Assembly: GCA_946699065.1 (NCBI GenBank)
Contig: CAMPDV010001733.1
Location: 1 to 64,000, forward strand
Direction: 5' to 3'
DNA from: Loxodes magnus
Taxonomy: Eukaryota > Ciliophora > Karyorelictea > Loxodida > Loxodidae
Length of the DNA: 64,000 nt
Under the pieces are notes generated by a model that worked only from the letters and a program-made list of their open reading frames with translations, was not told the DNA's origin and ran no database searches. Below, one piece after another: positions 10,717 through 63,981 of the stretch. Positions within the stretch are counted from its first letter, which is position 1, and every line of letters begins with the position of its first letter. Position numbers and translations under genes: made by a program.

Positions 10717-11804
10717 TCAACTCGAAACTCTCCACTTTCTTATCGTCTTGTCCCATGCTCCCGATACCAACCATCTATTGTCAACACTCAATGCTATAGA
10801 ATATATATCATCTGTATGCCCTTACAAAGTCTATATACACTCACCCTTTTCAAAGTTCCAGATCTTGATTGTTCTATCATAAGAACCAGAAAATATTACA
10901 CTTGAATCAACACTTAACTGAATACTTGATACACCTATTGCATGACCTTAAAGAGTACGAATACACTAACCAGAAGAGAAGTCCCATATCTTAATAGTAC
11001 TGTCATAACAACCAGATATTATATACCTATTATCCTTAGACACAATCACCGATGAAACTCAGTCTGAATGCCCAGTAAGATTTCGTACAAGCTGACCAGT
11101 CTAGAAATCCCAAATCTTTATAGTTTTAATCCCAAGATCCCGATATGATATATCTAGAGTCATAGGAGATTACTACCGAACTAACTATATAAGTATGTCC
11201 CGTTATAGTTCTTAGGAGAGTTCCATTGTGGAAATTTCAGATCTTTATAGTTGAATCACCAGATCCTGATACAATATAGCTAGAGTCAGGGGAGATTACT
11301 ACTGATCTGATTCCAGAAGTATACTCCGTTATAGTTCTTATGAGAACACCAGTCTACAAATTTCAGATCTTTATAGTTGAATCACCAGATCCTGATACAA
11401 TATAGCTAGAGTCAAGGGAGATTACTACCGATATAACAGTAGAAGTATGTCCTGTTATAGTTCTTTGGAGAGCACCTGTCTGGAAATTCCAGATTTTTAT
11501 CAAATTTTCAAGTTATTCTGAACCTGATACAATTCAATTCAGGTCCCTTGATATGGCTACCGAGAATACAACTGAAGTGTGTCCAGTAATGATTTAGTCT
11601 AAAAAATATTAAAGAAATACCTTTACTTTGGTCATAACTGATCTTGTTTATAAGCTTTTAGTAGCATAAGTTAGGCAGAATTTCATACTTAAAATGAAGT
11701 AGAGATATTTTCCCTAAAATGTGACTTCTCGCTCTTAAGAGTTTTCTTAAAAAAATACTTTTAGTAAATTGCTTTTCTTTTCTCTCCGTTTCTTTTTTCT
11801 CCAT
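10717..11804 (-). pseudogene. WD40 seven-bladed propeller gene, copy A, with a 1 nt frameshift
   Basis: Same architecture as copies B-E: ATG at 11804, a basic N-terminal segment of about 60 residues, a 22 nt intron (11599-11620), seven WD40 repeats and a TGA stop at 10717-10719. One extra A near 11127-11129 (TTTTAATCCC where copy D has TTTTATCCC) shifts the frame inside the fourth blade; the total exonic length is exactly one base more than in copies D and E. Everything else reads as intact WD40 sequence, so this is a very young pseudogene or a base-call error. Repeats 2 and 3 contain an exact 56 bp duplication (11232-11287 and 11358-11413), evidence of blade-to-blade copying. Variable face residues include TSVVF, TSTVI, TYIVS, AIGVS after the GH positions. 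TGA encodes Trp in LNWIVSG, in KIWN of blades 2 and 3, and in HSDWVSS. Confidence 0.88.
11599..11620 (-). other. 22 nt intron of WD40 copy A
   Basis: GTATTTCTTTAATATTTTTTAG on the minus strand: GT start, pyrimidine-rich end, AG. Removing it joins the codon for Asp (G + AC) and brings the N-terminus into frame with the first blade. The sequence is identical in all five copies. Confidence 0.85.
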
Positions 11805-14800
11805 TTTAATTTTTATAACTTACTTCAATAAATATTTAATTAAAATAACTCAATTAATTTTACTTACTTAATTTCATTACAATTAAACAAATTAATTATT
11901 TATTAAGCATACTTATAAATATCTTCTTAAACATTGATTTTTCTATTTTTGTCTTAAAGCAAGACAAGATATTAAACTAATAGTGTACAAGATTTTAAAA
12001 TTTTAATTATTTATATCTTTTTACTTTTAAATAAAAGGATAAATTATTATATCAAAAGTTTTATAACGAAGAATCTATATCCCTATTATAATAACTTTAA
12101 TATGCATCCATTAATTACAACTTATTTGTGCTTTAAATCAAAGACTTTTAATAAGAAAACCTTATTTCTTTAAAGACACTTTTAAATGATAAATAAAATA
12201 TTACATTTTTTTAAAGCTATTGTTATTAATTATAGTCTTTCTCTTACATTTAATCAAAAAAATTATTTATTTAAGTTTTTACTAATTAAAAAAATTAAAT
12301 AAAATAAGTTTCTTATTAATTAGTTTGAATAAATATTAAAAAACATCAAATTACTTAAAACAAAGTATTTTTAGAATTTATAAGATAAACTCTTTTATTT
12401 ATCCACTTTCTTACTACTATTTCATTAAAACTTTTTATTTATAAAGGTCTCTCTTATAATAATAAACTAATATAATTTATTACTTATAATGTTGATTCTA
12501 ATCAAAATATATAAATGTAATAAATATAAGTAGTAGAAAGTAAATATTTAAACTAACTAGGAATGGTGTATCACTAATTTTATCTTACAATTATTAAATA
12601 GTAATATTTAATTTTATTATAAAATAAGCTTTAATATGTTTAATTATGTCTATTTAATACTTAATATTTTATCCTTTTAGCTTTATTAGTTATTAATTAA
12701 TTTATCTTTAATTTATAAAGATATTAGATTAGTTATAATTAATACATTTAGATAACTTTCTATTTTTATAGCAAACTAATATTTATTATTTATGTTATTT
12801 TTGTAATTATCATTTCAAATTAATAATACCTAAATTATTCTAGATTACTTAAAGATAAAAACTTAATTCTATTATTCTATACAAATCTATATTATATTGC
12901 TAACACTATTAATACTCTCTTTATTAAAATAACTTGTTTGTTACTAAGAAAATTATAAGCTTTTTTAAGAAAGAAACATATTTTAATATATTCTACTATT
13001 ATTTTCTGAATTAATAGAAAGAGTAAACTTAACACAATATGTTTGTTTGTAATATGAGATAATATAAGTATTAGATTAGCTAATATAAGTTATTAAAACT
13101 AATCTAACAGATTATTATTTACTCTTAATACATTTTATTAGTCTACTATTATTCTATATCTTTCTGTTCCTAATCAACAATTCTACATGTTTTGCTTTAT
13201 AGCACATCATAATTTATTAATCTTAAACATTACAAAAGATTAAAACATAAAAAGATGATATAGATAGTTATAGAATTATTTGAAGCTGAAACATTAAAAT
13301 AAGCTAGATGTTTAGATTATTTATAATTTTCCTAATTTAAATTATATTTATATATTCCTTTTTATTAACTATCTTTAGTAATTAATTTTCGTTTGGAAAA
13401 CTGATAAAAAGATACATTTTGTAAAATATTTAGTCTTAATTTATCTAAGTTTATTTTAGTGAGCATAAGAGTATATTAAATTTAAAGTATTAATTATACT
13501 AGTTCTATAAAACATTTAGGTAATTATATGTACTAAAATAAATAGTAAAGAGAAAACATTATTCTTTTATATAATTAAATAAAGAAAAGCTAGCTTAAAT
13601 CTTCTATAGAGTCAATTATTTATTTATCTAAAATCCTCTATTTATCTTAAAATAAAGTGTTTAATATATTATAGCCTCCTTTACTAACTCATTTAGTAAT
13701 ATTAATTTCTAAAAACTTGAAAGAAAATTCCTTTTTACTTTAACTGTACTTGGAAATATTCTAAGTACTTTAACTATTTAAAGATATGTTTAATTAGAGA
13801 CTAATAAGAAATTTTCTTATCCTCTAGATAAAATATTTAATAAAGCTGTGATTGCATTTCTTATTAATGAAGAATAATATTTTAAATTAAAATAAGGAAA
13901 ATTAATATTTTTTCTTTATGTTTAATAAAAATTTAAAACAATTTATTATATAAAATCTATTAATATTTTATAAAAAACCAAAGTAAATGCAAAAACATTA
14001 ATTAAATATAATTTAAAAATATTAAGAAATTTATAATTATAAATGATATTATAAATAAATATTTAAATATTTTATTATTGTTTAGATAAAACATATAATA
14101 AATTATGTAATCTATATTTTAACCTTAGAAATGTAGTAAAATATTTTTAAAAGTTAAATGAAAAATTATAAGGAAAACTTAAGAAATTAAATTTTTCTAT
14201 AAAAAATGAATATAAAATTTACTAATTATTTAATTATACTATCACTTATATTAAATTATTTATAAATATTACTAAGAGAGAAAAAATATAAATTAATTAG
14301 TTAAAAAAAATTATAATTTAAAATTTTATATTTAACAATATTTGTGATAAAGATAAATATTAAAGAATAAAAATTTTATTAATCTAGCATCGATTGACTT
14401 TTTAAATAAAGAAATTCAACAAAAAAATAATTATTCTTAGAAACTTTCAATTTCAAAATATAAAAAATTAAAAACGTTAAAAATGTTAAAAAATTCTCTA
14501 AATCTCAGATTTTTATAATCAGCCTATTCGAAAATAGTTTATTTTTACTATTTTTCATCGATTATGGATATATATATGGTACAAGTACTAATTATTTTAC
14601 TAATCTAAAATTTTAACTTCTTCTTAAATGGAAACTTTTAAATATTTGAATAAATAAGTAAAAATTATTTAATTTTTTATTTTCTAATTCTTTTTCTAAA
14701 CTTAATATGAAATTCCGCTAAATGTTTTTAAAAATAATTTAATTTATATCAATATTAAGATTCTAACTTTAAATATTAAGTAAAGTAGCAAAATAAATTA

Positions 14801-16920: not shown

Positions 16921-16926
16921 ACCCTC

Positions 16927-24194: not shown

Positions 24195-25200
24195 TATTTT
24201 AACATAAGAACAATATGTGTAAGAGAAAGATTTAGATTAGCTATCTTTAAGTCATTAAATATTGCACTCGTGTTGGGAATAATAGTTGATTTTCACTTTT
24301 CATTATAATATCAATAATGATAGCTCCAATTTAACAAAAATAATTCTACTTAGTAAAAAAATAACAAATTACATCATTTAATCTTTATTCTCAAAATCAG
24401 AGCAAAGAAATAAATCTGAAGTAAGATAAATATTTTTAAAAATTAAGAAACGTCAAGATAATCGAAACCTTGTTTACTTATGAATATTTGCAAATAGATA
24501 TTATAATTGATGATTTCAAAGAGTTTAATAAGCATAACAATATTTAACTTAAAAAAATTATTCTAAGAATGCCTTTAAAAATGCAGTCATGTCAACAGCA
24601 AAAAGATTTGTTGATTTAATAAAAGATATATAAAACATTTTCTCTTTAATAATATACGCTAAATACAATAGACATCTAATTTAAGAAACTATTTCAATCT
24701 AAAAATTAATTACTTATATTTATAATTTTAAATATGAACTGAATCATCGATATATCAAAACTCAATTCAATAAACTTTGCTTAAGTAGATAGGAATTTGA
24801 TACATTTGAGCACATTTTCAAACGTAATCTTTTTACAGATATTTAAAAATTTTTAATAAACTTAAAATAATTAATGGAAAATAGTGTAAAAGACTTGTTT
24901 TATATGACTAAACTATATTAATAAATAGTTTACAAAAGATAAGATAATTAAATTAGATAAGTACATAAAAATATTTCATCAATAATATTTAGAAAACCAT
25001 TAGAGATTTTAAGAACTAGAGTGAATAGAAAATAGGTTATATTAAAAACCCATTAACAGATTTAATGAGCTAAAAAATTGTTTATGACGATGAGAGTGAA
25101 AGGGAATCATGAATGAAATATAGAAAGTTTTAAATTTAGGTTAATTTGGATGGTTGAAAGGCAATAATTATAGAATAAAGTCTAAATATTTAAAGTGTTA
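24195..25200 (+). repeat. Shared helical coding-like block, copy 2
   Basis: Near-identical to 3050-4060, including the LSRQEFDTFEHIFKRN and LMENSVKDLFYMTKLY segments (near 24780-24920). Here it is not preceded by the endonuclease remnant, so the block and the endonuclease piece are separable. Small differences from copy 1 (for example one or two base indels near 24560) suggest that neither is under strict coding constraint. Confidence 0.45.
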
Positions 25201-26434
25201 TAGTTGATTATTATTACTTATGATTTAAAGTTTTAAATAGTGAATAAGATTTTGAAATGATTAATTTTTAAAAATAAAAATAAATAATTTTAATAATTAT
25301 AATTAATTTGATTAATTGTAAGCTATATGGGCCTTTCTAATATAATAGTTGATATATATATAAATAATAAAAATGATAGGATAAAATTGAATGTTTTAGC
25401 ATTTATAATATTAAAGGATAGTTTTAGTTAAAATATGTTTTTAAAGAAATAAAGTAATTGAATTATAGTTAAATATTTGATGTAAGTATAATTTTGTTAT
25501 TATTAGGAAATGAATAATAATGGCTTATATTTAAATTTGTTTAAACTGACAATTATAAAATAATTAATTTTACATAATTATGTTTAATTAAATTTATATA
25601 AATTAATAATTTATACTTAACTTATAATAAAAGTTAGTTAAGATTATTATTATAATTACTTATATTACTTAGAACTAAAAATTATACATTCATTAAATTT
25701 ATAATTATTGATAATTCTTTATTAATTTTATTTTATACAGTTATCTCTAAAGGTATGTTTAACTATATTTACTTTTTAATTCACTAAATTATTGTTTTAA
25801 TTATTGTAGACATTAATTATCAAATGAGAACTTTTATATTTTTATAATCTAGTAATCAAATGCTTATTGTTAACCAATTATTTAAAACTCTTATCAAAAT
25901 TATGAAAAGCATCCTCTTTATTAGTTTTAAATTGATACAAAGATAATTAATTCTAGCATATAATTATTGAATTATTTTAGATTTTTGATATAGTATTTTT
26001 AATATTAATATCTTACTATTATAAAGGATTATTTTAAACTATATTTTGCTATCATTTAGAATTTTATATTATTAAAGTAATAAAGCTAAAGTTTCCTTTG
26101 GTTTACTTAGAACTTCAATTCCTTTTAGATATTTCTTCCTTTATATTCTCTATGTTTTATTAATTATAGTTAAATAAAGAGTTATTTAAATGGCTTAGCA
26201 ATTTAATTAGTTTTTAGAACCTAAATTTTAATATTTATTTATAAAAATGAATGCTATAAATTAAAGCTATTTAGTAATAATATTTAACTTTAATAAAAGA
26301 GTTATTGTATGAAACTGTTTATTTCAATTTTAAATTTTAAACTAAAATTATTTTTTGACATCTATAACTGCAAGAATTGCTTCAATTATAGACATTAGTA
26401 AATGTTTTTAATGCTTTTTAATATAATCTTGAAC
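25201..26434. other. A+T-rich DNA conserved between units, no gene seen
   Basis: Copy of 4061-5288; nothing recognisable in it. Confidence 0.55.
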
Positions 26435-29120
26435 TCATCAATTTTTAATTACTCTTGTTATAGTCTCATCTTTTATTTCTCCATTTTTACTTTTTCCATT
26501 TCTAATCATTCTAATCTTCTTGATATAAGTTTCTTGTAAAATCTTTTTATTTAGAAATCTAAATATCTAAAATAAGACTTTAGAAAGGAGTTTATAAGTC
26601 CTTAATCATATATTATAATGCGTCTTAAGTCATAATTCTCAATCTCTTATATTAGAATAGTATATACATTTCAAAATCTCCTCAAATGTACCATACTCTC
26701 CACATATACAGTAGGGATTATCAATAGGATAATCAAGATCTTAAAGATCTTTTCTAAAATTAAAAGATTGGGTTCTAAGTTTATATATACTGATAATTTC
26801 TTGTCTAAATTATTTGTTCAACTTAGTGTAAGTAATTACTAAAAATTGGTTAAGATTACTAAACTGCTTAGTATATATTTTAGCTCTTAAACTTTTGAGT
26901 AGCTGTATTATACAAATATTGTTCTTTTTTGACTCTTATATATTTAGTAAACATTTTTTAATTTGTACTAATCTTGGAATTCTACAGGGCGATACTATAG
27001 ATGTCTGATAATCGCTAAACTTTATCATAGCATTGAAATCAAATTTTTCAGTTGGTAATGAAAAGAGAGCCTATTGTCGATGTTGGAAAATTAATGCTTT
27101 CTTATTTCATTTTATAATAGAATTTAAAAAACTTTATTGTCATAATGTGTTTGAAAGATAACCAGTTTAAATCTATGAAACATAACTTATTAATTGCTGA
27201 AGTTGCTGCTTAAAATGCTTTTCTTGAAATCATTCTCATACTTGATTCAATTCTATTCAAAACTCAAGTTATTCCTCTCTGAATACACCATGGTACTAGT
27301 TCTCTCCATATTCTGCTTTAGGTAATGTAAATAGTTTGCATAAAGTTTTAAAATGCCAAGAAATCACATTCTTATATCTCATAAGTTTAAAAACAGTTTT
27401 TTTCATTGCAACTAAATACTTGATCACGACTTCTTTACAATGAGGATTAAAATTTTACTTCTAATGTAGCATTACATCTAAATATGTTACTTTTTCCTTT
27501 TAAATAATTGGTTAATTATCTAATCATAAATTTAAATTTTATTATTTTTAATGTTTCTTTAAAATTTAGATGCATTCAGATTTGATAAATTTTATCTTTA
27601 ATTGAGTTTATGTAAAAATGCTTACTTGTTTCATTTATTAACTCCTTCATCTACTTTGCAGTTTTGGAAAGAAGAATCAAATCATCTGCTCATCGTCTAC
27701 GTGCGAAGCTAATACTCCAACCCTGGCATTTGAATCCCAATCAGGTATTTTTACTTTCGAAATATCTAATTACTATGTCATATGGTCCATGTGACTTTCC
27801 TTACATAACTCCATTGTTGTATTATAATGATGTTCTTTCCTCTATTTTAAATGAAGAATTTAGGTTTTTGTAAAACGATTCTAAGGCTATTATTATTCCA
27901 AGTGGTAGTTTAACTCTCTTAAATTAATCAAGCAAAAGTCTTCTTTCTATTGAGTCAAACATTTTTCCAACATCTATCAGTGTTGCTATCAATTTAGTCT
28001 TACTTTTAGCACTTTTCCGATAGTTATCAATTATTTGTTATATTATTCAAATTTATTAAGTTGCTTATCTACTTTTCATAAATCCCATTTATGTAGGGTG
28101 AATCAAATTTCTCTAATAAAGCAGATTGTATAGTCTTTTTGTTAAAGCTTTATCATATAGTTTTATAATAATATTAATAAGAGAAATAGGTAGTCAGTTT
28201 TTCCAGTCATCTTTATTTCCTTTTTTAAATATTGGAATTACCGACAATGTATTTAATTCCTAAGGGATTCTTCCAAATCTTAACATATTATTCAGAAAAG
28301 AGTGAAGAATTATTATCAAATATTATCCACCATATTTCAGAAGTTCACCTTTTATTCTGTCTTAACAGCTGCTTTTCCATTCGTAATTTCTTTTATAATT
28401 TCTTGTATTTCTTGTATGGTAAAAAGATAAAATCCTTATAAATATGAGAGTTGATAATTTTTAATTTCCTAAATACTATCTTATATTTTATCTATTTTTT
28501 AATTACTAAGATTTATTTATTATTTAGTTAGATTAGAATGTTTGTTAAAAGTACAATTCTCCCATGAATCAATGGATTTATTTTTAATTTCTTAATTAAA
28601 GTTCATTTAATTTATTATTTTAGGCTTTTTAATTTTCTTAGTATGTGAAAATATTTCTTTAGCATCTCCATTTAGAAGTAAAAGTTTCTTTTTTGCTTTG
28701 TTTTTTCAAACTTTCACAAATTAGACTTGAAGTCATTCAGAATGTTGTTTCACTTTTTCATGAAGATTAGTTACTTATTAGTTGATTCTTCCAGATATAA
28801 TATGTGCTTCTTTATATACTGAGTTAGCCCTTTTAGGCGTACATATTTGTTAGTAAGATCTGGAGATATTTGTTATAACTTGAGTCTGGAATAAAGGATG
28901 GTAATGTTTAATCAGCATTGTATTAGATGTTATTTTTGATAAATTTATATTAAACTTCAAGATTATCTTAATCTATCTAAAAGAATTCTAGATAAGTTTG
29001 CAGGAAAAATTCTAAATATTTTTGATGATATATTGCATCTTATAAGCTATTTATTTTATATTTCCTCAAATTCTTGCACATTTTCAATTAATCTCACATA
29101 AAATTAAGTTTTTTTTATAA
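26435..29120 (-). pseudogene. Non-LTR reverse transcriptase ORF2 remnant, unit 2 (catalytic core in frame)
   Basis: Copy of 5289-7980 and the most continuous through the polymerase core: from VIPIFKKGNKDDW (about 28200-28250) through LIDVGKMFDS (about 27955-27985), GVMQGKSHGP and WADDLILLS (27665-27692) there is one uninterrupted frame when TAA/TAG are Gln and TGA is Trp, because it lacks the 5 bp duplication found in copies 1 and 3. TGA at 27690-27692 gives the Trp of WADD. It still shares the later frame shifts with the other copies, between the WADD helix and YLDVML, and its GKAAGPDRI motif is damaged (near 28365). It ends at paired TGA codons (26435-26440) after ITRVIKN. Pseudogene, but recently more intact than its siblings. 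Confidence 0.88.
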
Positions 29121-30797
29121 ATAAATTTGCAGAAAAAATGTTATTTTTAAGCTATAATATCATCTTATCACTGTTTATCTTATAATAGTTTTAAGAATTA
29201 AGTTTTTATCTTTAAATATCTAGCAATTTTCAGTTGATATCATACTTTATGAATAAATATAATTACAATCTTTAAAACATCAATCAAATAGATAAATGAA
29301 CAATAAATAATGACTATTTAATTATAAAATGAATATGAAAACATTTTAATTTAATTTCTTGATAAGATATTTTAAATTTAAATAAGTGCTTAATCTTTTA
29401 AAAATCATATTTATTAAACCACTTTAAATGTTTTTATGTTTATGAATATTTACTATCTTAAATTAAACAATACTATATTCTATATTAAAGCAAACCTTTA
29501 TTAAAGGAATCCTTAAATTATAAATTATCATTTAGTTCTCTAATCATTTAGAATATAACAAAAATAATTCATTATTAAGCTTATTTGGGAAATTGTGTAC
29601 TATTAGCATTATCGGCTTAGTAGAAACTTTGCTTTTTATTATGCTATATATGTTTCTTTTTATATTGTACGAAATATTTGCCATTTTTTATAGATATAAT
29701 TATAATAGTTATTAAATTACACTTTGTATATTATTTTAATTAATACAAAAGATTAAAGCTTTTAACCTTTTTTGATATAATTAAGGTATATTGATTTCTT
29801 AATTATTTACACTTTCATTTTGGTAATTCTTATTATTTAATATTAGAATATCATTTTATTCTTATTTTAGATGCAAGTATAAGATAATTTACAAGAAACT
29901 TAAGATTTTTATTATTTTCCATATATTCAAATTATTTATATACTTTACTAACAAATCCTTTTATATCATAAATAATCAATCTATTAAAAAAAAAAGCTTT
30001 CAGCTTTAATAAAATACCTTCATTAGGAATTCAAATTTTAAGATTAATAAATAAAATCTATTTTCTATATACATAGTAGATATATTCAAGTTGCTTTAAA
30101 TCAAAAAGCTTATCTTTAAAGCTATTTCTTTTAATATTACGAAATAAAAAAAATTTAAAGATAAAAAATACTTAATATAGCAATTTTTTCTTAAAAACTC
30201 ATTTTTCTCTTCTAAATTAACATCTTTTCGCAAACTAAAAACAGATAGTTAGTCGTAATAAGCTCTTTTCAAAACTCTTTTACTCATCTTTTCGATTTTT
30301 AATGTTTTTCTAATTATTATAATAAAGCAGAATATTTTTAAACTTGATTAATAAATTTTTTGTTTCTATATTTTATATAGTTAGGTTAGATATATTATTT
30401 AGATCCTTTTTTAATTACTTTTTTTTAGATTCTTTGTAAATTGGCCTAAAATTTATTATTACAGATGTATTGTACCTCATTTTTTCTATTTGATTGATCA
30501 TATTTTTATAAAGAGATTTTTAAGCTCTTTTTAGATTAGTTATTTTTAAATTTTCGCAATATCTATTAAAAAGTTAGTTTTAAGCCCTCTTATAGAAAAT
30601 TTTTTTACTGATTTTGTTTCTTCCTAAAATTGTCATTTATTTTTTATCTTTACTTCTTAAAAGTCATTTAAAAAACTTTTCAAATCTTTTAAAATTATAT
30701 CCCTTTAAGAAAAGGATTTATCCACCCGAAAATCTTTTGTAGCGAATAACTCAGAGTGAAAAAAGGATAATATTTTCACGATTTCATGGTTTATTTT
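29121..30797. other. A+T-rich DNA conserved between units, no gene seen
   Basis: Copy of 7981-9617, with the arm motif CCCGAAAATCTTTTGTAG near 30725-30742. Nothing else recognised. Confidence 0.55.
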
Positions 30798-31917: not shown

Positions 31918-32989
31918 TCAACTCGAAACTCTCCACTTTCTAATTGTCTGGTCCTTTCCTCCCGATACCAACCATCTATTGTCAACACTCAATGCTATAG
32001 AATGTATATCATCTGTATGCCCTTACAAAGTCTATATACACTCACCTTTATCAAAGTTCCATATTTTGATTGTTTTATCCCATGAACCAGAAAATATTAC
32101 ACTTGAATCAACACTTAACTGAATACTTGATACACCTCTTGCATGACCTTAAAGAGTACGAATACACTAACCAGAAGAGAAGTCCCATATCTTAATTGTC
32201 TTGTCACCAGAACCTGATATTATATACCTGTTATCCTTAAACACTATCACCAATAAAAAATAACTTGAATGGCCAGTAAGAGTTCGCACAAGCTGACCAG
32301 TCTAGAAATCCCAAATCTTTATAGTTTTATCACCAGATCCCGATATAATATATCTAGAGTCATAGGAGATTACTACCGATATAACTGCATTAGTATGACC
32401 CGTTATAGTTCTTTGGAGATTACCATTGTGGAAATTTCAGATCTTTATGGTTTCGTCACCAGATCCCGATATAATATATCTAGAGTCATAAGAGATTGCT
32501 ACCGAGTAAACATGAGAAGTATGCCCCGTTAAAGTTCTTATGAGAGCACCAGTCTATAAGTTTCAGATCTTTATGGTTTTGTCAGAAGATCCTGATACTA
32601 AATAACTAGAGTCTGGGGAGATTACTACCGATAAAGCATATGAAGTATGTCCCATTATAGCTCTTAGGAGAGTACCTGTCTGGAAATTCCAGATCTTTAT
32701 CAAATTTTCGGGATATACTGAACCAGATACAATTCAATTCAGGTCACTTGATATAGCTGCCGATTACACAGGCTAAGTGTGACCAGTAAGGATTTAGTCT
32801 AAAAAATATTAAAGAAATACCTTTACTTTGGTCATAACTGATTTTGTTTATTAACTTTTAGTAGCATAAATTGGGCAGAATTTCATACTTAAAATGAAGT
32901 AGAGATATTTTCCCTAAAATGTGGCTTCTCGCTCTTAAGAGTTTTCTTAAAAAAATACTTTTAGTAAATTGCTTTTCTTTTTTCTCCAT
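31918..32989 (-). CDS. WD40 seven-bladed propeller protein, copy B
   Basis: Intact: ATG at 32989, intron 32799-32820, TGA stop at 31918-31920; 1050 exonic bases, 349 residues. It is five residues shorter than D and E because one ETEKK-like repeat in the Lys/Glu-rich extreme N-terminus is missing. Seven WD40 repeats follow. Distinctive face residues: TQPVQ (blade 1), TSYAL, TSHVY, TNAVI, SSYFL, ARGVS, TDDIH. In blade 5 the usual HSDW is HSSY, so one TGA-coded Trp is absent here. Blades 3 and 4 share a 35 bp exact stretch (TCACCAGATCCCGATATAAT and on) not shared by the other copies in blade 3, suggesting copying from blade 4 into 3. TGA codes Trp in LNWIVSG and in KIWN of blades 2 and 3. Confidence 0.92.
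32799..32820 (-). other. 22 nt intron of WD40 copy B
   Basis: Identical to the intron in the other four copies; required to keep the N-terminal segment in frame with blade 1. Confidence 0.85.
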
Positions 32990-41094: not shown

Positions 41095-42178
41095 ATGGAG
41101 AAAAAACAAACGGAGAAAAAAGAAAAGCAATTTACTAAAATTATTTTTTTAAGAAAACTCTTAAGAGCGAGAAGCCACATTTTAGGGAAAATATCTCTAC
41201 TTCATTTTAAGTATGAAATTCTGCCTAACTTATGCTACTAAAAGTTAATAAACAATATCAGTTATGACCAAAGTAAAGGTATTTCTTTAATATTTTTTAG
41301 ACTAAGTCATTACTGGTCACACTTCAGCTGTGCTATCGGTAGCCATATCAAGGGATCTAAATTGAATTGTATCAGGTTCAGCATTTCCTGAAAATTCGAT
41401 AAAGATCTGGAATTTCCAGACAGGTGCTCTCCTAAGAACTATAACAGGAAATAATTATGCTTTATCGGTAGTAATCTCCCCTGACTCTAACTACATTGTA
41501 TCAGGATCTGGTGACAAAACCATAAAGATCTGAAATTTATAGAATGGTTCTCTCATAAGAACTTTAACGGGGCATACTTCTCCTATTACTTCGGTAGTAA
41601 TCTCCTATGACTCTAGCTATATAGTATCAGGATCTTATGACACTACTATAAAGATCTGAAATTTCCACAATAGAACTCTCCTAAGAACTATAACGGGTCA
41701 TACTAATGCAGTTATATCGGTAGTAATCTCCTATGACTCTAGATATATTATATCGGGATCTGGTGATACAACTATAAAGATTTGGGATTTCTAGACTGGT
41801 CAGCTTGTGCGAACTCTTACTGGGCATTCTGACTGAGTTTCATCGGTGATAGTGTCTAAGGATAATAGGTATATAATATCAGGTTCTGGTGACAGGACTA
41901 TTAAGATATGGGACTTCTCTTCTGGTTAGTGTATTCGTACTCTTTAAGGTCACTCAAGTTCTGTATCAAGTATTCAGTTAAGTGTTGATTCAAGTGTTAT
42001 CTTTTCTGGTTCAGGTTACAGAACAATCAAGATCTGGAACTTTGATAAGGGTGAGTGTATATAGACTTTACAAGGGCATAATTTAGATATACATTCTATA
42101 GCATTGAGTGTTGATAATAGATGGTTGGTATCGGGAGGATTTGACAAGACGATAAGAAAGTGGAGCATTTCTAGTTGA
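41095..42178 (+). CDS. WD40 seven-bladed propeller protein, copy C
   Basis: Intact: ATG 41095, intron 41279-41300, TGA stop 42176-42178; 1062 exonic bases, 353 residues. Residues 1-61 are basic (Lys/Glu-rich start, then [20 protein letters not shown]), with no signal peptide or clear membrane segment. The rest is seven WD40 repeats, each ending in IWxF/L and starting with LxGH, enough to close one propeller; WD40 propellers act as protein-binding platforms. No other domain is fused. In-frame TGA codons at 41363, 41531, 41657 and 41834 all fall on conserved tryptophans, while every Trp in the last 340 bases is TGG. Blade 2 is one residue shorter than in the other copies (GNNYALS for GHTSYALS) and blade 6 lacks the usual Asp (SGSGYRT). 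It converges with copy D across a 12 kb retroelement island. Confidence 0.93.
41279..41300 (+). other. 22 nt intron of WD40 copy C
   Basis: GTATTTCTTTAATATTTTTTAG, phase 1; the split codon reads G|AC (Asp). Exonic length is a multiple of three only if it is removed. Confidence 0.88.
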
Positions 42179-47564: not shown

Positions 47565-47938
47565 ACAACATGTGTAAGAGAAAGATTTAGATTAGCTATC
47601 TATAAGTCATTAAATATTGCACTAGTGTTGGGAATAATAGTTGATTTTTACCTTTCATTATAATATCAGCAATGCTAGCTCCAATTTAACAAAAATAATT
47701 CTACTTATAAAAAGATAAAAATTACACCATTTAATCTTTATTCTCAAAATCAGAGCAAAGAAATAAATCTGAAGTAAGATAAATATTTTAAAAAAATTAA
47801 GAATTGCCAAGATAATCAAAACCTTGCTTACTTATGAATATTTGCAAATAGATATTATAATTGATAATTTCAAAGAGTTTAATAAGCATAGCAATATTTA
47901 AATAAAAAAATTTATTCTAAGAATACCTTTAAAGAAAT
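47565..47938 (+). repeat. Shared helical coding-like block, copy 3, truncated
   Basis: Matches 3055-3437 and then jumps to sequence equivalent to 4306 onward; the junction is the direct repeat TTTAAAGAAAT (47928-47938). The FDTFEHIFKRN part of the block is therefore lost in this unit. Confidence 0.6.
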
Positions 47939-48922
47939 AAAGTAATTGAATTATAGTTAAATATTTGATGTAAGTATAATTTTGTTATTATTAGGAAATG
48001 AATAATAATGGCTTATATTTAAATTTGTTTAAACTGACAATTATAAAATAATTAATTTTACATAATTATGTTTAATTAAATTTATATAAATTAATAATTT
48101 ATACTTAACTTATAATAAAAGTTAGTTAAGATTATTATTATAATTACTTATATTACTTAGAACTAAAAATTATACATTCATTAAATTTATAATTATTGAT
48201 AATTCTTTATTAATTTTATTTTATACAGTTATCTCTAAAGGTATGTTTAACTATATTTACTTTTTAATTCACTAAATTATTGTTTTAATTATTGTAGACA
48301 TTAATTATCAAATGAGAACTTTTATATTTTTATAATCTAGTAATCAAATGCTTATTGTTAACCAATTATTTAAAACTCTTATCAAAATTATGAAAAGCAT
48401 CCTCTTTATTAGTTTTAAATTGATACAAAGATAATTAATTCTAGCATATAATTATTGAATTATTTTAGATTTTTGATATAGTATTTTTAATATTAATATC
48501 TTACTATTATAAAGGATTATTTTAAACTATATTTTGCTATCATTTAGAATTTTATATTATTAAAGTAATAAAGCTAAAGTTTCCTTTGGTTTACTTAGAA
48601 CTTCAATTCCTTTTAGATATTTCTTCCTTTATATTCTCTATGTTTTATTAATTATAGTTAAATAAAGAGTTATTTAAATGGCTTAGCAATTTAATTAGTT
48701 TTTAGAACCTAAATTTTAATATTTATTTATAAAAATGAATGCTATAAATTAAAGCTATTTAGTAATAATATTTAACTTTAATAAAAGAGTTATTGTATGA
48801 AACTGTTTATTTCAATTTTAAATTTTAAACTAAAATTATTTTTTGACATCTATAACTGCAAGAATTGCTTCAATTATAGACATTAGTAAATGTTTTTAAT
48901 GCTTTTTAATATAATCTTGAAC
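47939..48922. other. A+T-rich DNA conserved between units, no gene seen
   Basis: Copy of 4306-5288; nothing recognisable. Confidence 0.55.
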
Positions 48923-51600
48923 TCATCAATTTTTAATTACTCTTGTTATAGTCTCATCTTTTATTTCTCCATTTTTACTTTTTCCATTTCTAATCATTCT
49001 AATCTTCTTGATATAAGTTTCTTGTAAAATCTTTTTATTTAGAAATCTAAATATCTAAAATAAGACTTTAGAAAGGAGTTTATAAGTCCTTAATCATATA
49101 TTATAATGCGTCTTAAGTCATAATTCTCAATCTCTTATATTAGAATAGTATATACATTTCAAAATCTCCTCAAATGTACCATACTCTCCACATATACAGT
49201 AGGGATTATCAATAGGATAATCAAGATCTTAAAGATCTTTTCTAAAATTAAAAGATTGGGTTCTAAGTTTATATATACTGATAATTTCTTGTCTAAATTA
49301 TTTGTTCAACTTAGTGTAAGTAATTACTAAAAATTGGTTAAGATTACTAAACTGCTTAGTATATATTTTAGCTCTTAAACTTTTGAGTAGCTGTATTATA
49401 CAAATATTGTTCTTTTTTGACTCTTATATATTTAGTAAACATTTTTTAATTTGTACTAATCTTGGAATTCTACAGGGCGATACTATAGATGTCTGATAAT
49501 CGCTAAACTTTATCATAGCATTGAAATCAAATTTTTCAGTTGGTAATGAAAAGAGAGCCTATTGTCGATGTTGGAAAATTAATGCTTTCTTATTTCATTT
49601 TATAATAGAATTTAAAAAACTTTATTGTCATAATGTGTTTGAAAGATAACCAGTTTAAATCTATGAAACATAACTTATTAATTGCTGAAGTTGCTGCTTA
49701 AAATGCTTTTCTTGAAATCATTCTCATACTTGATTCAATTCTATTCAAAACTCAAGTTATTCCTCTCTGAATACACCATGGTACTAGTTCTCTCCATATT
49801 CTGCTTTAGGTAATGTAAAAAGTTTGCATAAAGTTTTAAAATGCCAAGAAATCACATTCTTATATCTAATTAGTTAAAAAACTGCTTTTTTCATTGCAGC
49901 TAAATACTTGAACGCGACTTCTTTACAATGAGGATTAAAATTCTTCTTCTAATGTAGCATTACATCTAAATATGTTACTTTTTCCTTTTAAATAATTGGT
50001 TAATTATCTAATCATAAATTTAAATTTTATTATTTTTAATGTTTCTTTAAAATTTAGATGCATTCAGATTTGATAAATTTTATCTTTAATTGAGTTTATG
50101 TAAAAATGCTTACTTGTTTCATTTATTAACTCCTTCATCTACTTTGCAGTTTTGGAAAGAAGAATCAAATCATCTGCTCATCGTCTACGTGCGAAGCTAA
50201 TACTCCAACCCTGGCATTTGAATCCCAATCAGGTATTTTTACTTTCCAAATATCTAATTACTATGTCATATGGTCCATGTGACTTTCCTTACATAACTCC
50301 ATTGTTGTATTATAATGTTCTGATGTTCTTTCCTCTATTTTAAATGAAGAATTTAGGTTTTTGTAAAACGATTCTAAGGCTATTATTATTCCAAGTGGTA
50401 GTTTAACTCTCTTAAGTTAATCAAACAAAAGTCTTCTTTCTATTGAGTCAAACATTTTTTAAACATCTATCAGTGTTGCTATCAATTTAGTCTTACTTTT
50501 AGCACTTTTCCGATAGTTATCAATTATTTGTTATATTATTCAAATTTATTAAGTTGCTTATCTAATTTTCATAAATCCCATTTATGTAGGGTGAATCAAA
50601 TTTCTCTAATAAAGCAGATTGTATAGTCTTTTTGTTAAAGCTTTATCATATAGTTTTATAATAATATTAATAAGAGAAATAAGTAGTCAATTTTTCCAGT
50701 CATCTTTATTTCCTTTTTTAAATATTGGAATTACCGACAATGTATTTAATTCCTAAGGGATTCTTCCAAATCTTAACATATTATTCAGAAAAGAGTGAAG
50801 AATTATTATCAAATATTATCCACCGTATTTCAGAAATTCACTTTTTATTCTGTCTGGACCAGCTGCTTTTCCATTCGTAATTTCTTTTATAATTTCTTGT
50901 ATTTCTCGTATGGTAAAAAGATCAAATCCTTACAAATATGAGAGTTGATAATCTTTAATTTCTTAAATACTATCTTATATTTTATCTATTTTTTAATTAC
51001 TAAGATTTATTTATTATTTAGTTAAATTAGAATATTTGTTAAAAATCAATTCTCCCATGAATCAATGGATTTATTTTTGATTTCTTAATTAAAGTTCATT
51101 TAATTTATTATTTTAGGCTTTTTAATTTTCTTAGTATGTGAAAATATTTCTTTAGCATCTCCATTTAGAAGTAAAAGTTTCTTTTTTGCTTTGTTTTTTC
51201 AAACTTTCACAAATTAGACTTGAAGTCATTCAGAATGTTGTTTCACTTTTTCATGAAGATTAGTTACTTATTAGTTGATTCTTCCAGATATAATATGTGC
51301 TTCTTTATATACTGAGTTAGCCCTTTTAGGCGTACATATTTGTTAGTAAGATCTGGAGATATTTGTTATAACTTGAGTCTGGAATAAAGGATGGTAATGT
51401 TTAATCAGCATTGTATTAGATGTTATTTTTGATAAATTTATATTAAACTTCAAGATTATCTTAATCTATCTAAAAGAATTCTAGATAAGTTTGCAGGAAA
51501 AATTCTAAATATTTTTGATGATATATTGCATCTTATAAGCTATTTATTTTATATTTCCTCAAATTCTTGCACATTTTCAATTAATCTCACATAAAATTAA
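48923..51600 (-). pseudogene. Non-LTR reverse transcriptase ORF2 remnant, unit 3 (best N-terminal half)
   Basis: Copy of 5289-7980. This copy keeps the motif GKAAGPDRIKSEFLKYGG (near 50820-50875), destroyed in the other two, followed in one frame by LRFGRIPQELN, VIPIFKKGNKDDWKNW and the first aspartate motif. It shares with copy 1 the 5 bp duplication (50317-50321) that breaks the frame between the first aspartate motif and QGKxxGP, and with both copies the shift between the WADD helix and YLDVMLHQKKNFNPH. The TGA codon of WADD is at 50178-50180. The C-terminal cysteine motif YCICGEYG is followed by paired TGA codons (48923-48928). The best reconstruction of the ancestral enzyme would need all three copies; none is functional as it stands. 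Confidence 0.88.
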
Positions 51601-53297
51601 GTTTTTTTTATAAATAAATTTGCAGAAAAAATGTTATTTTTAAGCTATAATATCATCTTATCACTGTTTATCTTATAAAAGAATAGTTTTAAGAATTAAG
51701 TTTTTATCTTTAAATATCTAGCAATTTTCAGTTGATATCATACTTTATGAATAAATATAATTACAATCTTTAAAACATCAATCAAATAGATAAATGAACA
51801 ATAAATAATGACTATTTAATTATAAAATGAATATGAAAACATTTTAATTTAATTTCTTGATAAGATATTTTAAATTTAAATAAGTGCTTAATCTTTTAAA
51901 AATCATATTTATTAAACCACTTTAAATGTTTTTATGTTTATGAATATTTACTATCTTAAATTAAACAATACTATATTCTATATTAAAGCAAACCTTTATT
52001 AAAGGAATCCTTAAATTATAAATTATCATTTAGTTCTCTAATCATTTAGAATATAACAAAAATAATTCATTATTAAGCTTATTTGGGAAATTGTGTACTA
52101 TTAGCATTATCGGCTTAGTAGAAACTTTGCTTTTTATTATGCTATATATGTTTCTTTTTATATTGTACGAAATATTTGCCATTTTTTATAGATATAATTA
52201 TAATAGTTATTAAATTACACTTTGTATATTATTTTAATTAATACAAAAGATTAAAGCTTTTAACCTTTTTTGATATAATTAAGGTATATTGATTTCTTAA
52301 TTATTTACACTTTCATTTTGGTAATTCTTATTATTTAATATTAGAATATCATTTTATTCTTATTTTAGATGCAAGTATAAGATAATTTACAAGAAACTTA
52401 AGATTTTTATTATTTTCCATATATTCAAATTATTTATATACTTTACTAACAAATCCTTTTATATCATAAATAATCAATCTATTAAAAAAAAAAGCTTTCA
52501 GCTTTAATAAAATACCTTCATTAGGAATTCAAATTTTAAGATTAATAAATAAAATCTATTTTCTATATACATAGTAGATATATTCAAGTTGCTTTAAATC
52601 AGAAAGCTTATCTTTAAACCTATTCCTTTTAATATTACGAAATTAAAAAAATTTTGAAGAGAAAAAATACTTAATATAGCAATTTTTTCTTAAAAACTAA
52701 TTTTTCTCTTCTAAATTAACATCTTTTCGCAAACTAAAAACAGATAGTTAGTCGTAGTAAGCTCTTTTCAAAACTCTTTTACTCATCTTTTCGATTTTTA
52801 ATGTTTTTCTAATTATTATAATAAAGCAGAGTATTTTTAAACTTGATTAATAAATTTTTTGTTTCTATATTTTATATAGTTAGGTTAGATATATTATTTA
52901 GATCCTTGTTTAATTACTTTTTTTAGATTCTTTGTAAATTGGCCTAAAATTTATTATTACAGACGTATTGAACCTCATTTTTTCTATTTGATTGATCATA
53001 TTTTTATAAAGAGATTTTTAAGCTCTTTTTAGATTAGTTATTTTTAAAAATTCGCAATATCTATTAAAAAGTTAGTTTTAAGCCCTCTTATAGAAAAATT
53101 TTTTACTTATTTTGTTTCTTCCTAAAATTGTCATTTATTTTTTATCTTTACTTCTTAAAAGTCATTTAAAAAACTTTGCAAATCTTTTAAAATTCTATCC
53201 CTTTAAGAAAAGGATTTATCCACCTGAAAATCTTTTGTAGCGAATAACTCAGAGTGAAAAAAGGATAATATTTTCACGATTTCATGGTTTATTTTAT
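51601..53297. other. A+T-rich DNA conserved between units, no gene seen
   Basis: Copy of 7981-9617. It has a small local insertion near 51675 (AAAGAATAG) relative to the others and the arm motif near 53225-53242. Confidence 0.55.
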
Positions 53298-54393: not shown

Positions 54394-55480
54394 TCAACTC
54401 GAAACTCTCCATTTTCTTATCGTCTTGTCACTAGCTCCCGATACCAACCATCTATTATCAACACTCAATGCTATAGAATGTATTGATCTTGAATGCCCTT
54501 ACAAAGTCTATATACACTCACCCTTATCAAAGTTCCAAATCTTGATTGTTTTATCAATTGAACCAGAAAATATTACACTTGAATCAACACTTAGCTGAAT
54601 ACTTGATACACCATCTACGTGACCTTGAAGAGTACGAATACACTAACCAGAAGAGAACTCCCATATCTTAATAGTCTTGTCACCAGAACCTGATATTATA
54701 TACCTATTATCCTTAGACACTATCACTGATAAAACATAACCTGAATGCCCAGTAAGAGTTCGCACAAGCTGACCAGTCTAGAAATCCCAGATCTTTATAG
54801 TTTTATCCCAAGATCCCGATATAATATATCTAGAGTCATAGGAGATTACTACCGATATAACTGAGTCAGTATGCCCCGTTATAGTTCTTAGGAGAATTCC
54901 ATTGTGGAAATTTCAGATCTTTATGGTTTTGTCATGAGATCCCGATACTATATAGCTAGAGTCATAAGAGATTACTACCGAGAAAACTATAGAAGTATGC
55001 CCCATTAAAGTTCTTATGAGAGAACCATTCTATAAATTTCAGATCTTTATGGTTTAGTCAGCAGATCCTGATACGATATAATCAGAGTCAGGGGAGATTG
55101 CTACCGATAAAATAGTAAAAGTATGTCCTGTTATAGTTCTTTGGAGAGCACCTGTCTGGAAATTCCAGATCTTTATCAAATTTTCAGGATATACTGAACC
55201 TGATACAATTCAATTCAGGTCACTTGATATGGCTACCGATTACACAGGCTAAGTGTGACCAGTAAGGATTTAGTCTAAAAAATATTAAAGAAATACCTTT
55301 ACTTTGGTCATGACTGATCTTATTTATTAACTTTTAGTAGCATAAGTTAGGCAGAATTTCATACTTAAAATGAAGTAGAGATATTTTCCCTAGTATGTGG
55401 CTTCTCGCTCTTAAGAGTTTTCTTAAAAAAATAATTTTAGTAAATTGCTTTTCTTTTTTCTCCGCTTCTTTTTTCTCCAT
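54394..55480 (-). CDS. WD40 seven-bladed propeller protein, copy D
   Basis: Intact: ATG 55480, intron 55275-55296, TGA stop 54394-54396; 1065 exonic bases, 354 residues. Distinctive face residues: TQPVQ, TFTIL, TSIVF, TDSVI, SGYVL, VDGVS and SRSIH after the seven GH positions; SGSAD, SGSHD, SGSWD, SGSID and SGASD before the conserved Asp. Frame residues elsewhere match the other copies almost perfectly. Blade 5 has HSGY instead of HSDW. TGA codes Trp in LNWIVSG and KIWN of blades 2 and 3. Convergent with copy C; the conserved upstream flank runs to about 59540. Confidence 0.93.
55275..55296 (-). other. 22 nt intron of WD40 copy D
   Basis: Same sequence and position as in the other four copies. 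Confidence 0.85.
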
Positions 55481-58400
55481 TTTAATTTTTATAACTTAAT
55501 TCAATAACCATTTAAATAAAATAACTCAATTAATTTTACTTACTTAATTTAAATACAATTAAACAATTAAATTATTTATTAAGCATACTTATAAATATTT
55601 TATTAAACATTGATTTTTCTATTTTTGTCTTAAAACAAAATAAGATATTAAACTAATAGAATACAAACTTATATAATTTTAATTATTTTATATCCTTTTA
55701 CTTTTAAATAAAGGGATAAATTATTATTTCAAAAGTTTCTAACGAAGAATTTATATCCCTATTATAATAACTTTAATATGCATTTATTAATTACTACTTA
55801 TTTGTGCTTTTAATCAAAGACTCTTAATAAGAAAAAATTATTTCTTTATAGACCCTTTTAAATGATAAATAAAATATTACCATTTTTTTAAAGCTATTGT
55901 TATTAATTATTATTTTTCACTTACATTTAATCAAAAAAATGATTTAGTTAAGCTATTTACTAATTAAAAAAATTAAATAAAGTAAGTTTCTTATTAATTA
56001 GTTTGAATAAATATTAAAAAACATCAAATTATTTAAAGTAAAGCATTTTTAGTATTTATAAGATAAATTCTTTTATTTATCCACTTTCTTACTACTATTT
56101 CATTAAAACTTTTTATTTATAAAGATCTCTCTTATAATAATAAACTAATGATTCTAAGCAAAATATATAAATGTAATAAATATAAGTAGTAGAAAGTAAA
56201 TATTTAAACTAACTAGAAATGGTGTATCACTAATTTTATCTTACAATTATTAAATAGTAATATTTAATTTTATTATTAAAATAAGCTTTAATATGTTTAA
56301 TTATGTCTATTAAATACTTAATATTTTATCCTTTTAGCTTTATTAGTTATTAATTAATTTCTCTTTAATTTATAAAGATATTAGATTAGTTATAATTAAT
56401 ACATTTAGATAACTTTCTATTTTTATACCAAACTAATATTATATTTATTATTTATGTTATTTTTGAAATTATCATTTTAAATTAATAATACCTAAATTAT
56501 TCTAGATTATTTAAAGATAAAATCTTAATTCTATTATTCTATACTTATCCAAAAAACATAGTTACCACTATTAATACTCTCTTTCTTAAAATAAGTTGTT
56601 TGCTATTAAGAAAATTATTAGTTTTTTAAGAAAGAAAATATATTTATAATATCTTCTATTACTATTTTCTGAATAATTAGAAAGAGTAGACTTAACACAA
56701 TATATTTCTTTGTAATAAGTATGAGATAATATAAGTATTAGATTAGCTAATATAAGTTATTTAGAACTATTCGGATAGATTATTATTTACTCTTAATATA
56801 TTTTATTAGTCTACTATTATTTTATATCTTACTGTTCCTAATCAACAATTCATCATGTTTTGCTTTATAGCACATCATAATTTATTAATCTTATTACAAA
56901 AGATTTAAACTTAAAAAGATCATATAGATAGTTATAGAACTATTTGAAACTTAGGCATTAAAATAAGCTAGACTTTTAGATTATTTATAATTTTCCTAAT
57001 TTAAATTATATTTATATATTCTTTTTATTAACTATCTTTTGTAATTAACTTTCGTTTGGAAAACTGATAAAAAGATACATTTTGTATAATATTTAGTCTT
57101 AATTTATCTAAGTTTGTTTTAGTGGGTATAAGAGTATATTAAATTTAAAGTATTAATGATACTAGTTATATAAAGCATTTAGGTAATTATATGTACTAAA
57201 ATAAATAGTAAAGAGAAAACATTTTTCTTTTATATAATTAAATAAAGAAAAGCTAGCTTAAATCTTCTATAGAGTCAATTATTCATATATCTAAAATCCT
57301 CTATTTATCTTAAAGCCAAGTGTTTAATATATTATAGCCTCCTTTACTAACTCATTTAGTAATATTAATTCATAAAAACTTAAAAGAAAATTCCTTTTTA
57401 CTTAACTGTACTTGCAAATATTCTAAGTACTTTAACTAGTTAAAGATAGGTTTAATTAGAGACTAATAAGAAATTTTCTTATCCTCTAGATAAAATATTT
57501 AATAAAGCTGTGATTACATTTCTTATTAATTAAGAATAATATTTTAAATTAAAATAAGGAAAATTAATATTTTTCTATTTGTTTAATAAAAATTTAAAAT
57601 AATTTATATAAATCTCTTAATATTTTATAAAAAACCAAAGTAAATGCAAAAAAATTAATTAAATATAATTTAAAAAATATTAAGTAAATATATAATTATA
57701 AATGATATTATAAATAAATATTTTAAATATTTTATTATTGCTTAGATAAAACATATAATAAATTAAATAATCTATATTTTAACCTTAGAAATGTAGTAAA
57801 ATATTTTTAAAAGTTAAATTAAAATTATAAGGAAAACTTAAGAAATTAAATTTTTTTATAAAAAGAGAATATAAAATTTACTAATGATTTAATTGACACT
57901 ATCAGTTTTATTAAATTATTTAAAAATATTACTAAAGAAAAATAAAGTATAAATTAATTAATTTAAAAAATTTAAAAAAATTATAATTTAAAACTTTATA
58001 TTTAACAATACTTGTGTCTAAGATAAATATTAAAGAAAAATTTTTTATTAATCTATCATCGATTGATTTTTTAAATAAAGTAATTCAACAAAAAAATAAT
58101 TATTCTTAGAAATTTTCAATTTAAAAATATAAAAAATTAAAAACGTTAAAAATGTTAAAAAATTCTCTAACTCTCAGATTTTTATAATCAGCCTATTCGA
58201 GGATAGTTTATTTTTACTATTTTTCACTGATTATTGATGTATATATGATACAAGTACTAATTTTTTTTTTATTTTCAAATTTTAACTTCTGCTTAAGTGG
58301 AAACTTTTCAATATTTGAATAAATAAGTAAAAATTATTTAATTTTTTATTTTCTAAACTTAATATGAAATCCAGTTTCATTTTTTTAAAATAATTTAATT

Positions 58401-59540: not shown

Positions 59541-59569
59541 AATGTAACAAAAACAATCTTATTATTTTA

Positions 59570-60658: not shown

Positions 60659-60673
60659 ATAAACTTAAAATAA

Positions 60674-61573: not shown

Positions 61574-61659
61574 TTAATGAAAAATAGTGTAAAAGACTTG
61601 TTTTATATGACTAAACTATTAAATTAAATTAAAATTAAATTAAAAATTTTAAGGTTAAT

Positions 61660-61862: not shown

Positions 61863-61884
61863 ATCTTCTTTAAAGATGATATTG

Positions 61885-62894: not shown

Positions 62895-63981
62895 ATGGAG
62901 AAAAAAGAAACGGAGAAAAAAGAAAAGCAATTTACTAAAAGTATTTTTTTAAGAAAACTCTTAAGAGCGAGAAGCCACATTTTAGGGAAAATATCTCTAC
63001 TTCATTTTAAGTATGAAATTCTGCCTAACTTATGCTACTAAAAACTAATAAATAAGATCAGTTATGACCAAAGTAAAGGTATTTCTTTAATATTTTTTAG
63101 ACTAAGTCCTCACTGGTCACACTTGATCTGTTTGGTCGGTAGCTATATCAAGTGACATGAATTGAATTATATCATGTTCTGGATATCCTGAAAATTCGAT
63201 AAAGATCTGGAATTTCCAGACAGGTTCTCTCCAAAGAACTATAACAGGACATAATTCTCATGTTAGATCGGTAGTAATCTCCCTTGACTCTAACTATATT
63301 GTATCAGGATCTTGTGATTCAACTATAAAGATCTGAAATTTATAGAATGGTTCTCTCATAAGAACTTTAACGGGGCATACTTCTCCTATTACTTCGGTAG
63401 TAATCTCCTATGAGTCTAGATATATTATATCGGGATCTGGAGGTAAAACCATAAAGATCTGAAATTTCCACAATGGAACTCTCCAAAGAACTATAACGGG
63501 TCATACTGATATAGTTAACTCGGTAGTAATCTCCTATGACTCTAGATATATTATATCGGGATCTTGGGATAAAACTATAAAGATTTGGGATTCCTAGACT
63601 GGTCAGCTTGTGCGAACACTTACTGGGCATTCGGACTGAGTTTCATCGGTGATTGTGTCTAAGGATAATAGGTATATATTATCAGGTTCGGATGACAGTA
63701 CTATTAAGATATGGGACTTCTCTTCTGGTTAGTGTATTCGTACTCTTTAAGGTCATGCAAGTGGTGTATTAAGTATTCAGTTAAGTGTTGATTCAAGTGT
63801 AATATTTTCTGGTTCATGGGATAAAACAATCAAGATATGGAACTTTGATAAGGGTGAGTGTATATAGACTTTGTAAGGGCATACAGATGATATACATTCT
63901 ATAGCATTGAGTGTTGACAATAGATGGTTGGTATCGGGAGGAAAGGACCAGACAATTAGAAAGTGGAGAGTTTCGAGTTGA
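62895..63981 (+). CDS. WD40 seven-bladed propeller protein, copy E
   Basis: Intact and complete at the right end of the window: ATG 62895, intron 63079-63100, TGA stop 63979-63981; 1065 exonic bases, 354 residues. The first 61 residues are basic with two Lys/Glu-rich repeats (EKKETEKKEKQ) and a helix rich in Arg/Leu; then seven WD40 repeats. In-frame TGA at 63124, 63163, 63334, 63460 and 63637 fall on tryptophans (four of them invariant in the family), whereas all tryptophans in the final 340 bases are TGG. Distinctive face residues: TWSVW, NSHVR, TSPIT, TDIVN, SDWVS, ASGVL, TDDIH. In blade 3 the Asp of SGSxD is Gly. Plus strand like copy C; a retroelement island and another convergent WD40 copy may follow beyond the window. 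Confidence 0.93.
63079..63100 (+). other. 22 nt intron of WD40 copy E
   Basis: GTATTTCTTTAATATTTTTTAG, identical to the other four copies even though the surrounding exons differ, so either constrained or recently homogenised. Confidence 0.88.

Follow-up and report, generated by a model that had tools for sequence, protein, structure and literature searches.

What is encoded by a family of WD40 genes whose copies share a framework and differ mainly on one face of the propeller, and what role might such a family play? The question is raised by a stretch of 64,000 nucleotides (nt) from the ciliate Loxodes magnus (assembly GCA_946699065.1, contig CAMPDV010001733.1, positions 1 to 64,000 of the forward strand), hereafter the window, in which five copies, A to E, are found. 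They represent one small gene, present in hundreds of copies or more, that encodes a constant seven-bladed propeller with one fast-changing face. Judged from the sequences, the family very probably constitutes a diversified repertoire for recognition or binding, since this best explains a constant scaffold combined with one hypervariable, positively selected face and many recombining copies.

The same two-exon layout is found in all five copies, with an N-terminal exon of 56-61 amino acids, a 22-nt GT...AG intron and an exon encoding seven WD40 blades. The initial annotation had placed the five copies correctly and had quoted residue strings from blades 6 and 7 that prove exact; the upstream exon and the intron of each gene were absent from it. 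The features are as follows.

10717..11598, minus strand: copy A exon 2, seven WD40 blades, TGA stop, 1-nt frameshift in blade 4
11599..11620, minus strand: copy A intron, 22 nt
11621..11804, minus strand: copy A exon 1, basic N-terminus of 61 amino acids, from an in-frame ATG to the intron, constrained in the spliced frame
31918..32798, minus strand: copy B exon 2, seven WD40 blades, TGA stop
32799..32820, minus strand: copy B intron
32821..32989, minus strand: copy B exon 1, 56 amino acids
41095..41278, plus strand: copy C exon 1, 61 amino acids
41279..41300, plus strand: copy C intron
41301..42178, plus strand: copy C exon 2, seven WD40 blades, loop region of blade 2 one codon shorter, TGA stop
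54394..55274, minus strand: copy D exon 2, seven WD40 blades, TGA stop, modelled with AlphaFold2
55275..55296, minus strand: copy D intron
55297..55480, minus strand: copy D exon 1, 61 amino acids, no Pfam family above cut-off
55481..56182, minus strand: noncoding region upstream of copy D, common to all 57 loci compared
62895..63078, plus strand: copy E exon 1, 61 amino acids
63079..63100, plus strand: copy E intron
63101..63981, plus strand: copy E exon 2, seven WD40 blades, TGA stop

Copy A, with its frameshift in blade 4, is a pseudogene or contains a sequence error. The reading frame requires TAA and TAG to be read as glutamine and TGA as tryptophan; in each of the five copies, blades 2 and 3 use TGA for the tryptophan of the KIW motif. 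This bears out the ciliate origin proposed in the initial annotation and agrees with the published code of L. magnus, where TAA and TAG stand for glutamine, TGA is tryptophan or stop, and introns are mostly of 25 bp or less (PMC11441545). An intron-less reading with a different leader was rejected, since it is only in the spliced frame, with the 22 nt removed, that exon 1 shows clear constraint, with a ratio of replacement to synonymous change (pN/pS) of 0.14, against 0.64 and 0.65 in the other frames (64 sequences). The 200 nt upstream of the ATG look noncoding (pN/pS of 0.95, 1.16 and 1.05 in the three frames), and no single frame is clearly constrained in the block from -400 to -200 (1.06, 0.66 and 0.63). 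A Pfam scan of the exons matched PF00400 to seven stretches of exon 2, found no family above cut-off for the 61 amino acids of exon 1, the only match, below threshold, being zf-CCHC_4 with 15.8 bits against a cut-off of 27, and detected no NACHT, F-box or other effector or adaptor domain. No secretion signal or membrane anchor was noticed by eye, no predictor having been run.

With regard to the distribution of the variation, the amino acid differs among the five copies at 27 of the 28 codons of blade positions 7, 9, 25 and 27, compared with 56 of the 260 remaining codons of the WD40 region (Fisher p 1.7e-15, with independence of sites assumed), and the variable sites are thus not spread evenly. 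Codons that vary only synonymously number 0 at these four positions and 43 elsewhere in the WD40 region. The initial annotation had described near-identical framework codons and two variable places per blade. The copies do share a framework, although the 43 synonymous-only differences mean that it is not fully identical; the variable places after GH and before the aspartate (position 25) were rightly noted, but the residue after the aspartate (position 27) varies too, and position 8 (V or I) is mostly kept. Per 50 columns, the identity of the five aligned copies is about 90-97% over the approximately 700 bases upstream of the WD40 region and about 80-96% within most of it.

An AlphaFold2 model of exon 2 of copy D, made with an alignment of 38 exon 2 proteins of our choice among 51 sequences, has 28 strands, a mean predicted local distance difference test score (pLDDT) of 97.4 and a predicted template modelling score (pTM) of 0.93. 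The modelled fold, a Foldseek match to seven-bladed propellers with a template modelling score of about 0.95 and the seven PF00400 stretches all identify the protein as a seven-bladed WD40 propeller. The strands of blade 4 span residues 138-143, 149-154, 158-163 and 169-174 in the model, and in our mapping positions 6 and 7 lie in the d-a loop, position 9 at the start of strand a and positions 25-27 in the b-c turn. These positions correspond to R1-2, R1 and D-1, described in the available parts of PMC3419727 as the top-face hotspots of WD40 propellers, and are therefore predicted to lie on the top, binding face. Exon 1 was modelled as one helix with a pLDDT of 92.4 but a pTM of 0.48, from a shallow alignment of 21 sequences; the N-terminus is probably short, constant, basic and helical.

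The family was sought in the whole assembly of 705,730,643 bases and 7,843 contigs, the published macronuclear assembly being given as 706 Mbp in the part of PMC11441545 available. The 37-nt exon junction has 668 exact matches (328 and 340 on the two strands) and 1,387 matches with up to three mismatches (679 and 708), and the reversed control has 0 in both cases. Since duplicate contigs are included and identical copies recur on several contigs (duplicate or haplotypic), the true gene number is lower than these counts. At least 18 exact matches, on both strands, fall on contig C349 among the matches listed.

Two samples of copies were compared. The first consists of 47 distinct copies, obtained from 60 loci and the window after merging identical sequences; 59 of the 60 loci matched over more than 900 nt (L027 did not). 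These copies were found by likeness to copy D, which biases their divergence low, and seven frameshifted copies were left out of the codon tests, leaving 40 intact copies that encode 40 distinct proteins. For the second sample, 18 places, each on a different contig, were picked by us among 100 listed of the 668 exact matches; likeness in the WD40 or upstream regions was not a criterion, yet this was no random draw. Three of them were flagged as frameshifted: L072 and L074 were kept, having a gap at the first start codon and a further in-frame ATG, and L071, with a break inside exon 2, was dropped, which leaves 17 motif-sampled copies. The intron is invariant by construction in these, which is not so in the 47.

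Mean pairwise divergence among the 47 copies is 7.3% upstream, 3.5% in exon 1, 0.6% in the intron and 11.5% in exon 2. The 22-nt intron is thus almost invariant and its sequence seems constrained, given the higher divergence of the upstream DNA, in which most insertions and deletions involve a single nucleotide (+1 in 81 cases, -1 in 92). The excess of exon 2 over upstream divergence is seen both in the copies found with the upstream query (11.3 vs 6.6%) and in those found with the WD40 query (10.4 vs 7.1%). The corresponding values in the 17 motif-sampled copies are 10.6% upstream, 5.9% in exon 1, 0 in the intron and 14.4% in exon 2, and exon 2 diverges more than the noncoding upstream DNA in 119 of 136 pairs. 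Within the propeller, mean amino acid entropy in the 40 intact copies reaches 1.6-2.4 bits at positions 6, 7, 9, 25 and 27; position 38 (0.90) and then position 5 (0.77) come next.

The initial annotation had suggested that selection diversifies the top face, and the codon tests agree. At positions 7, 9, 25 and 27, pN/pS is 2.09 (bootstrap 1.88-2.33) in a set of 57 copies and 1.80 (1.51-2.21) in the 17 copies, which were not chosen by WD40 or upstream likeness. The same two sets give 0.29 and 0.33 for the framework, 0.18 and 0.24 for exon 1, and 0.62 and 0.63 for the whole WD40 region. In the 57 copies, pN at the hot codons is about 9-fold that of the framework (0.489 vs 0.052), a rise that is not matched by an equal synonymous change (pS of 0.234 vs 0.181). 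A site model that we wrote as a FUBAR-like grid, which is not the published program, assigned positive selection at P>0.95 to 45 of 355 sites on one tree, 2 of them in exon 1. Positions 7, 9 and 25 were selected in all seven blades and position 27 in four, amounting to 25 of 28 sites, against 18 among the other 262 sites of the WD40 region (Fisher p 2e-21). When each blade was given its own tree, positions 7, 9 and 25 were selected in six of the seven blades and position 27 in five (23 of 28). With regard to the opposite side of the propeller, the bottom loops of blades 4-7 have a pN/pS of 0.24 in the 57 copies and 0.43 in the 17, as against 0.92 and 0.91 for blades 1-3. The constrained bottom of blades 4-7 and exon 1 perhaps form a constant signalling side.

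As judged from their sequences, the copies recombine. Distinct combinations of top-face residues are found in 54 of the 57 copies, and linkage is low, with a mean r2 of 0.080 below 15 nt and of 0.027 above 500 nt (152 biallelic sites); r2 and distance are correlated at -0.087, and none of 1,000 permutations was as low. Locus L041 is a clear mosaic: over the 636 nt of blades 1-5 it has 2 differences from copy E and 75 from copy D, and over the 234 nt of blades 6-7 it has 2 differences from copy D and 27 from copy E. The blades appear to keep their position, the nearest neighbour being at another blade position in 6 of 374 blades. Blade number can change, since 3 of the 18 motif-sampled copies (L069, L074 and L080) have blade-sized deletions in exon 2, with gaps of 135, 252 and 129 nt, respectively.

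Homology to copy D reaches from window position 56182 to the WD40 exon at every one of the 57 loci compared, and it continues beyond the stop at 56 of them. Its outer ends differ among the loci, some of them recurring, and the dispersal would therefore be by segmental duplication rather than by an element with fixed ends. A transposon with fixed termini was considered and not seen in the 57 loci; target-site duplications were not looked for. That each copy has its own upstream region appears to argue against silent cassettes.

The proposed explanation is that these genes form a multigene family of very large size, whose products are standalone proteins for recognition. Each gene would encode a WD40 propeller of seven blades, preceded by a short N-terminus that is constant and basic, with a top face (positions 7, 9, 25 and 27, also 6) that is a putative ligand-binding surface under positive diversifying selection. 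The framework would be held constant together with the N-terminus and the bottom of blades 4-7, and these parts would probably bind a common partner. New faces would come about both through point changes and through recombination or gene conversion, in which blades at the same position in different copies are the partners. The ligands would be numerous and changing, the most likely ones being molecules from parasites, prey, symbionts or other cells encountered within the cell; the proteins would form a standing repertoire, the constant parts passing the signal on. Foreign matter inside the cell is favoured in view of the copy number, and also since no secretion signal was seen in the inspection by eye, made without a predictor. 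With this role included, the whole explanation seems somewhat better than an even bet. A more tentative version, to which we would give rather less than even chances, is that hundreds of propeller receptors in a unicellular eukaryote make up an intracellular immune repertoire encoded in the germline. Their constant N-terminus and bottom would serve signalling, and their combinatorial top face would be diversified by point change and blade-level gene conversion; the repertoire would have evolved apart from NOD-like receptors (NLRs) while using, in each blade, the four residues that fungal HET-E uses.

Several observations weigh against this explanation. Variation is focused on the top face, as first described, but it is not confined to it: bottom positions 15, 18, 38 and 40 vary too, mainly in blades 1-3, with a pN/pS of 1.06 in the 57 copies and 0.81 in the 17, no constraint is seen at the bottom of blade 7 among these 17 (0.89), and the 18 selected sites outside positions 7, 9, 25 and 27 extend the signal beyond one face. 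Synonymous change is raised at the hot codons (0.23 vs 0.18 in the 57 copies; 0.30 vs 0.16 at positions 6, 7, 9 and 25 in the 40), although much less than replacement change, and we reason that multi-step codon paths inflate this pS. The likelihood ratios are weak at several single sites, recombination breaks the assumption of a single tree, and with a tree per blade all four positions are lost in blade 3. Finally, 7 of the 47 copies are frameshifted and 1 of the 18 motif-sampled places holds a broken copy.

The likeness to the WD40 repeats of fungal HET-E and HET-D put forward in the initial annotation is upheld, as the four selected positions are identical. According to the available parts of PMC1805685, the WD40 repeats of the het-d/het-e family of Podospora anserina are 42 residues long, their framework is conserved and their top-face codons 7, 9, 25 and 27 are under strong positive selection, and the WD40 repeats of the NWD/HNWD genes are exchanged between family members. 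The fungal NWD genes, as far as the accessible text of PMC1805685 and PMC2873952 goes, have a NACHT domain, an N-terminal effector, 10 family members and exchanging repeats of variable number. In the Loxodes family, by contrast, no NACHT domain was found, the N-terminus has 56-61 amino acids, there are mostly seven blades, which appear to keep their position, and copies are far more numerous. Membership of the HET-E/HET-D (NWD) family was ruled out, there being no NACHT or effector domain in the exons and the 200 nt upstream of the ATG being noncoding; these are not HET or NLR genes, yet by analogy they would work like the WD40 recognition module of HET-E. The best sequence and fold matches of the Loxodes proteins are highly repetitive WD40 and WRAP-type propellers (for example PDB 2ymu and 7big). 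In the former class, hotspot sites vary on a conserved framework and the internal identity cut-off is 0.7 (PMC5587647, in part). With a mean blade-blade identity of 0.48-0.55 (40 copies), the Loxodes family falls under this cut-off and would be 'moderately repetitive' in that scheme, its variation lying between hundreds of gene copies. In ciliates, the rapidly evolving leucine-rich repeat (LRR) families of Tetrahymena, which have a different fold, comprise over 1,000 repeat-domain genes in most species, are ciliate-specific and are associated with sequences resembling long interspersed nuclear elements (LINEs); a link to recognition has been proposed, and WD40 is among the species-specific domains (PMC6564038, in the portions available). 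No description of the WD40 family was found in the openly licensed PubMed Central literature on the Loxodes genome or karyorelict WD40, and the L. magnus genome paper mentions neither WD40 nor WD repeats in its main text (PMC11441545). Should the proposed explanation be correct, a ciliate would possess a large recognition repertoire of its own on the WD40 face that fungi use in allorecognition NLRs, a striking convergence, and self/non-self or anti-parasite recognition in a protist would become open to direct tests in an organism whose genome and RNA sequencing data are published.

The roles suggested in the initial annotation, namely self/non-self recognition, mating type, defence or surface variation, are putative ones, as is any role in immunity or allorecognition. 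A repertoire for allorecognition or mating type proper, proposed there by analogy with HET-D/HET-E, in which cells would compare faces on contact or during conjugation, would share the four selected codons of het-d and het-e; hundreds of faces per genome are, however, ill-suited to a self-marker of few loci, unless one or few are expressed per cell, and no surface signal was noticed in the inspection by eye, made without a predictor, so that this alternative appears unlikely. Equally improbable is a family of adaptors or chaperones for many fast-evolving internal clients, such as substrate receptors of ubiquitin ligases or binders of LINE products, in which recognition would be real and its objects not foreign. 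The constant N-terminus and the constrained bottom of blades 4-7 would suit such a role, FBW7, a WD40 substrate receptor, is among the PDB sequence matches, and LINE remnants lie nearby, but neither an F-box nor any other adaptor domain turned up in the Pfam scan of the exons. A further alternative is that the copies are paralogues evolving neutrally or under relaxed constraint, or a dispersed repeat to which the WD40 frame is incidental, perhaps with a local rise in mutation. It would fit the LINE-bearing, segmentally duplicated setting, the nearly equal strands and the frameshifted copies, but is very hard to reconcile with the constraint on framework and exon 1 in the same copies, the 9-fold rise of pN with little rise of pS, the 40 of 47 copies in frame, and homology ends that differ without fixed termini being seen.

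As for the surroundings of the genes, a segment is present in triplicate in the window (3049-9493, 24196-30639 and 47928-53137), at a spacing of about 21-22 kb and with 98.0-98.7% identity, and each unit carries a WD40 copy further on. The stretches 4502-4801, 25648-25947 and 48136-48435 are 100% identical among the three units, and 4566-5783 gave no Pfam match in the single frame tried. Pfam comparison of eight further translated stretches of the window gave LINE-type matches in two and none in six. The two are remnants at 6214-7173 on the minus strand (reverse transcriptase RVT_1, E 6e-13) and at 901-1800 on the plus strand (Exo_endo_phos_2, E 1.4e-5, under its curated cut-off).

Elsewhere in the assembly, giant tandem arrays are built from WD40 repeats of 126 bp whose framework is a different one (RTFTGHADWVRSIAISPDQKWIVSASYDKTIKVWDFQTGSCL); they lie at L001-L008 (C1503, between 11.3 and 101.9 kb) and also on contigs C119, C9, C1832, C620, C272 and C6957. 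They seem unlikely donors of faces because their framework differs. The 126 repeat places read comprise 35 DNA and 30 protein variants, which differ mainly at positions 1, 2, 7, 9 and 25 and less at 4, 5 and 27; the search pattern fixed many framework residues, so the constancy of their framework is partly by construction. These arrays would represent either another hypervariable set of WD40 sequences or a satellite that resembles coding DNA.

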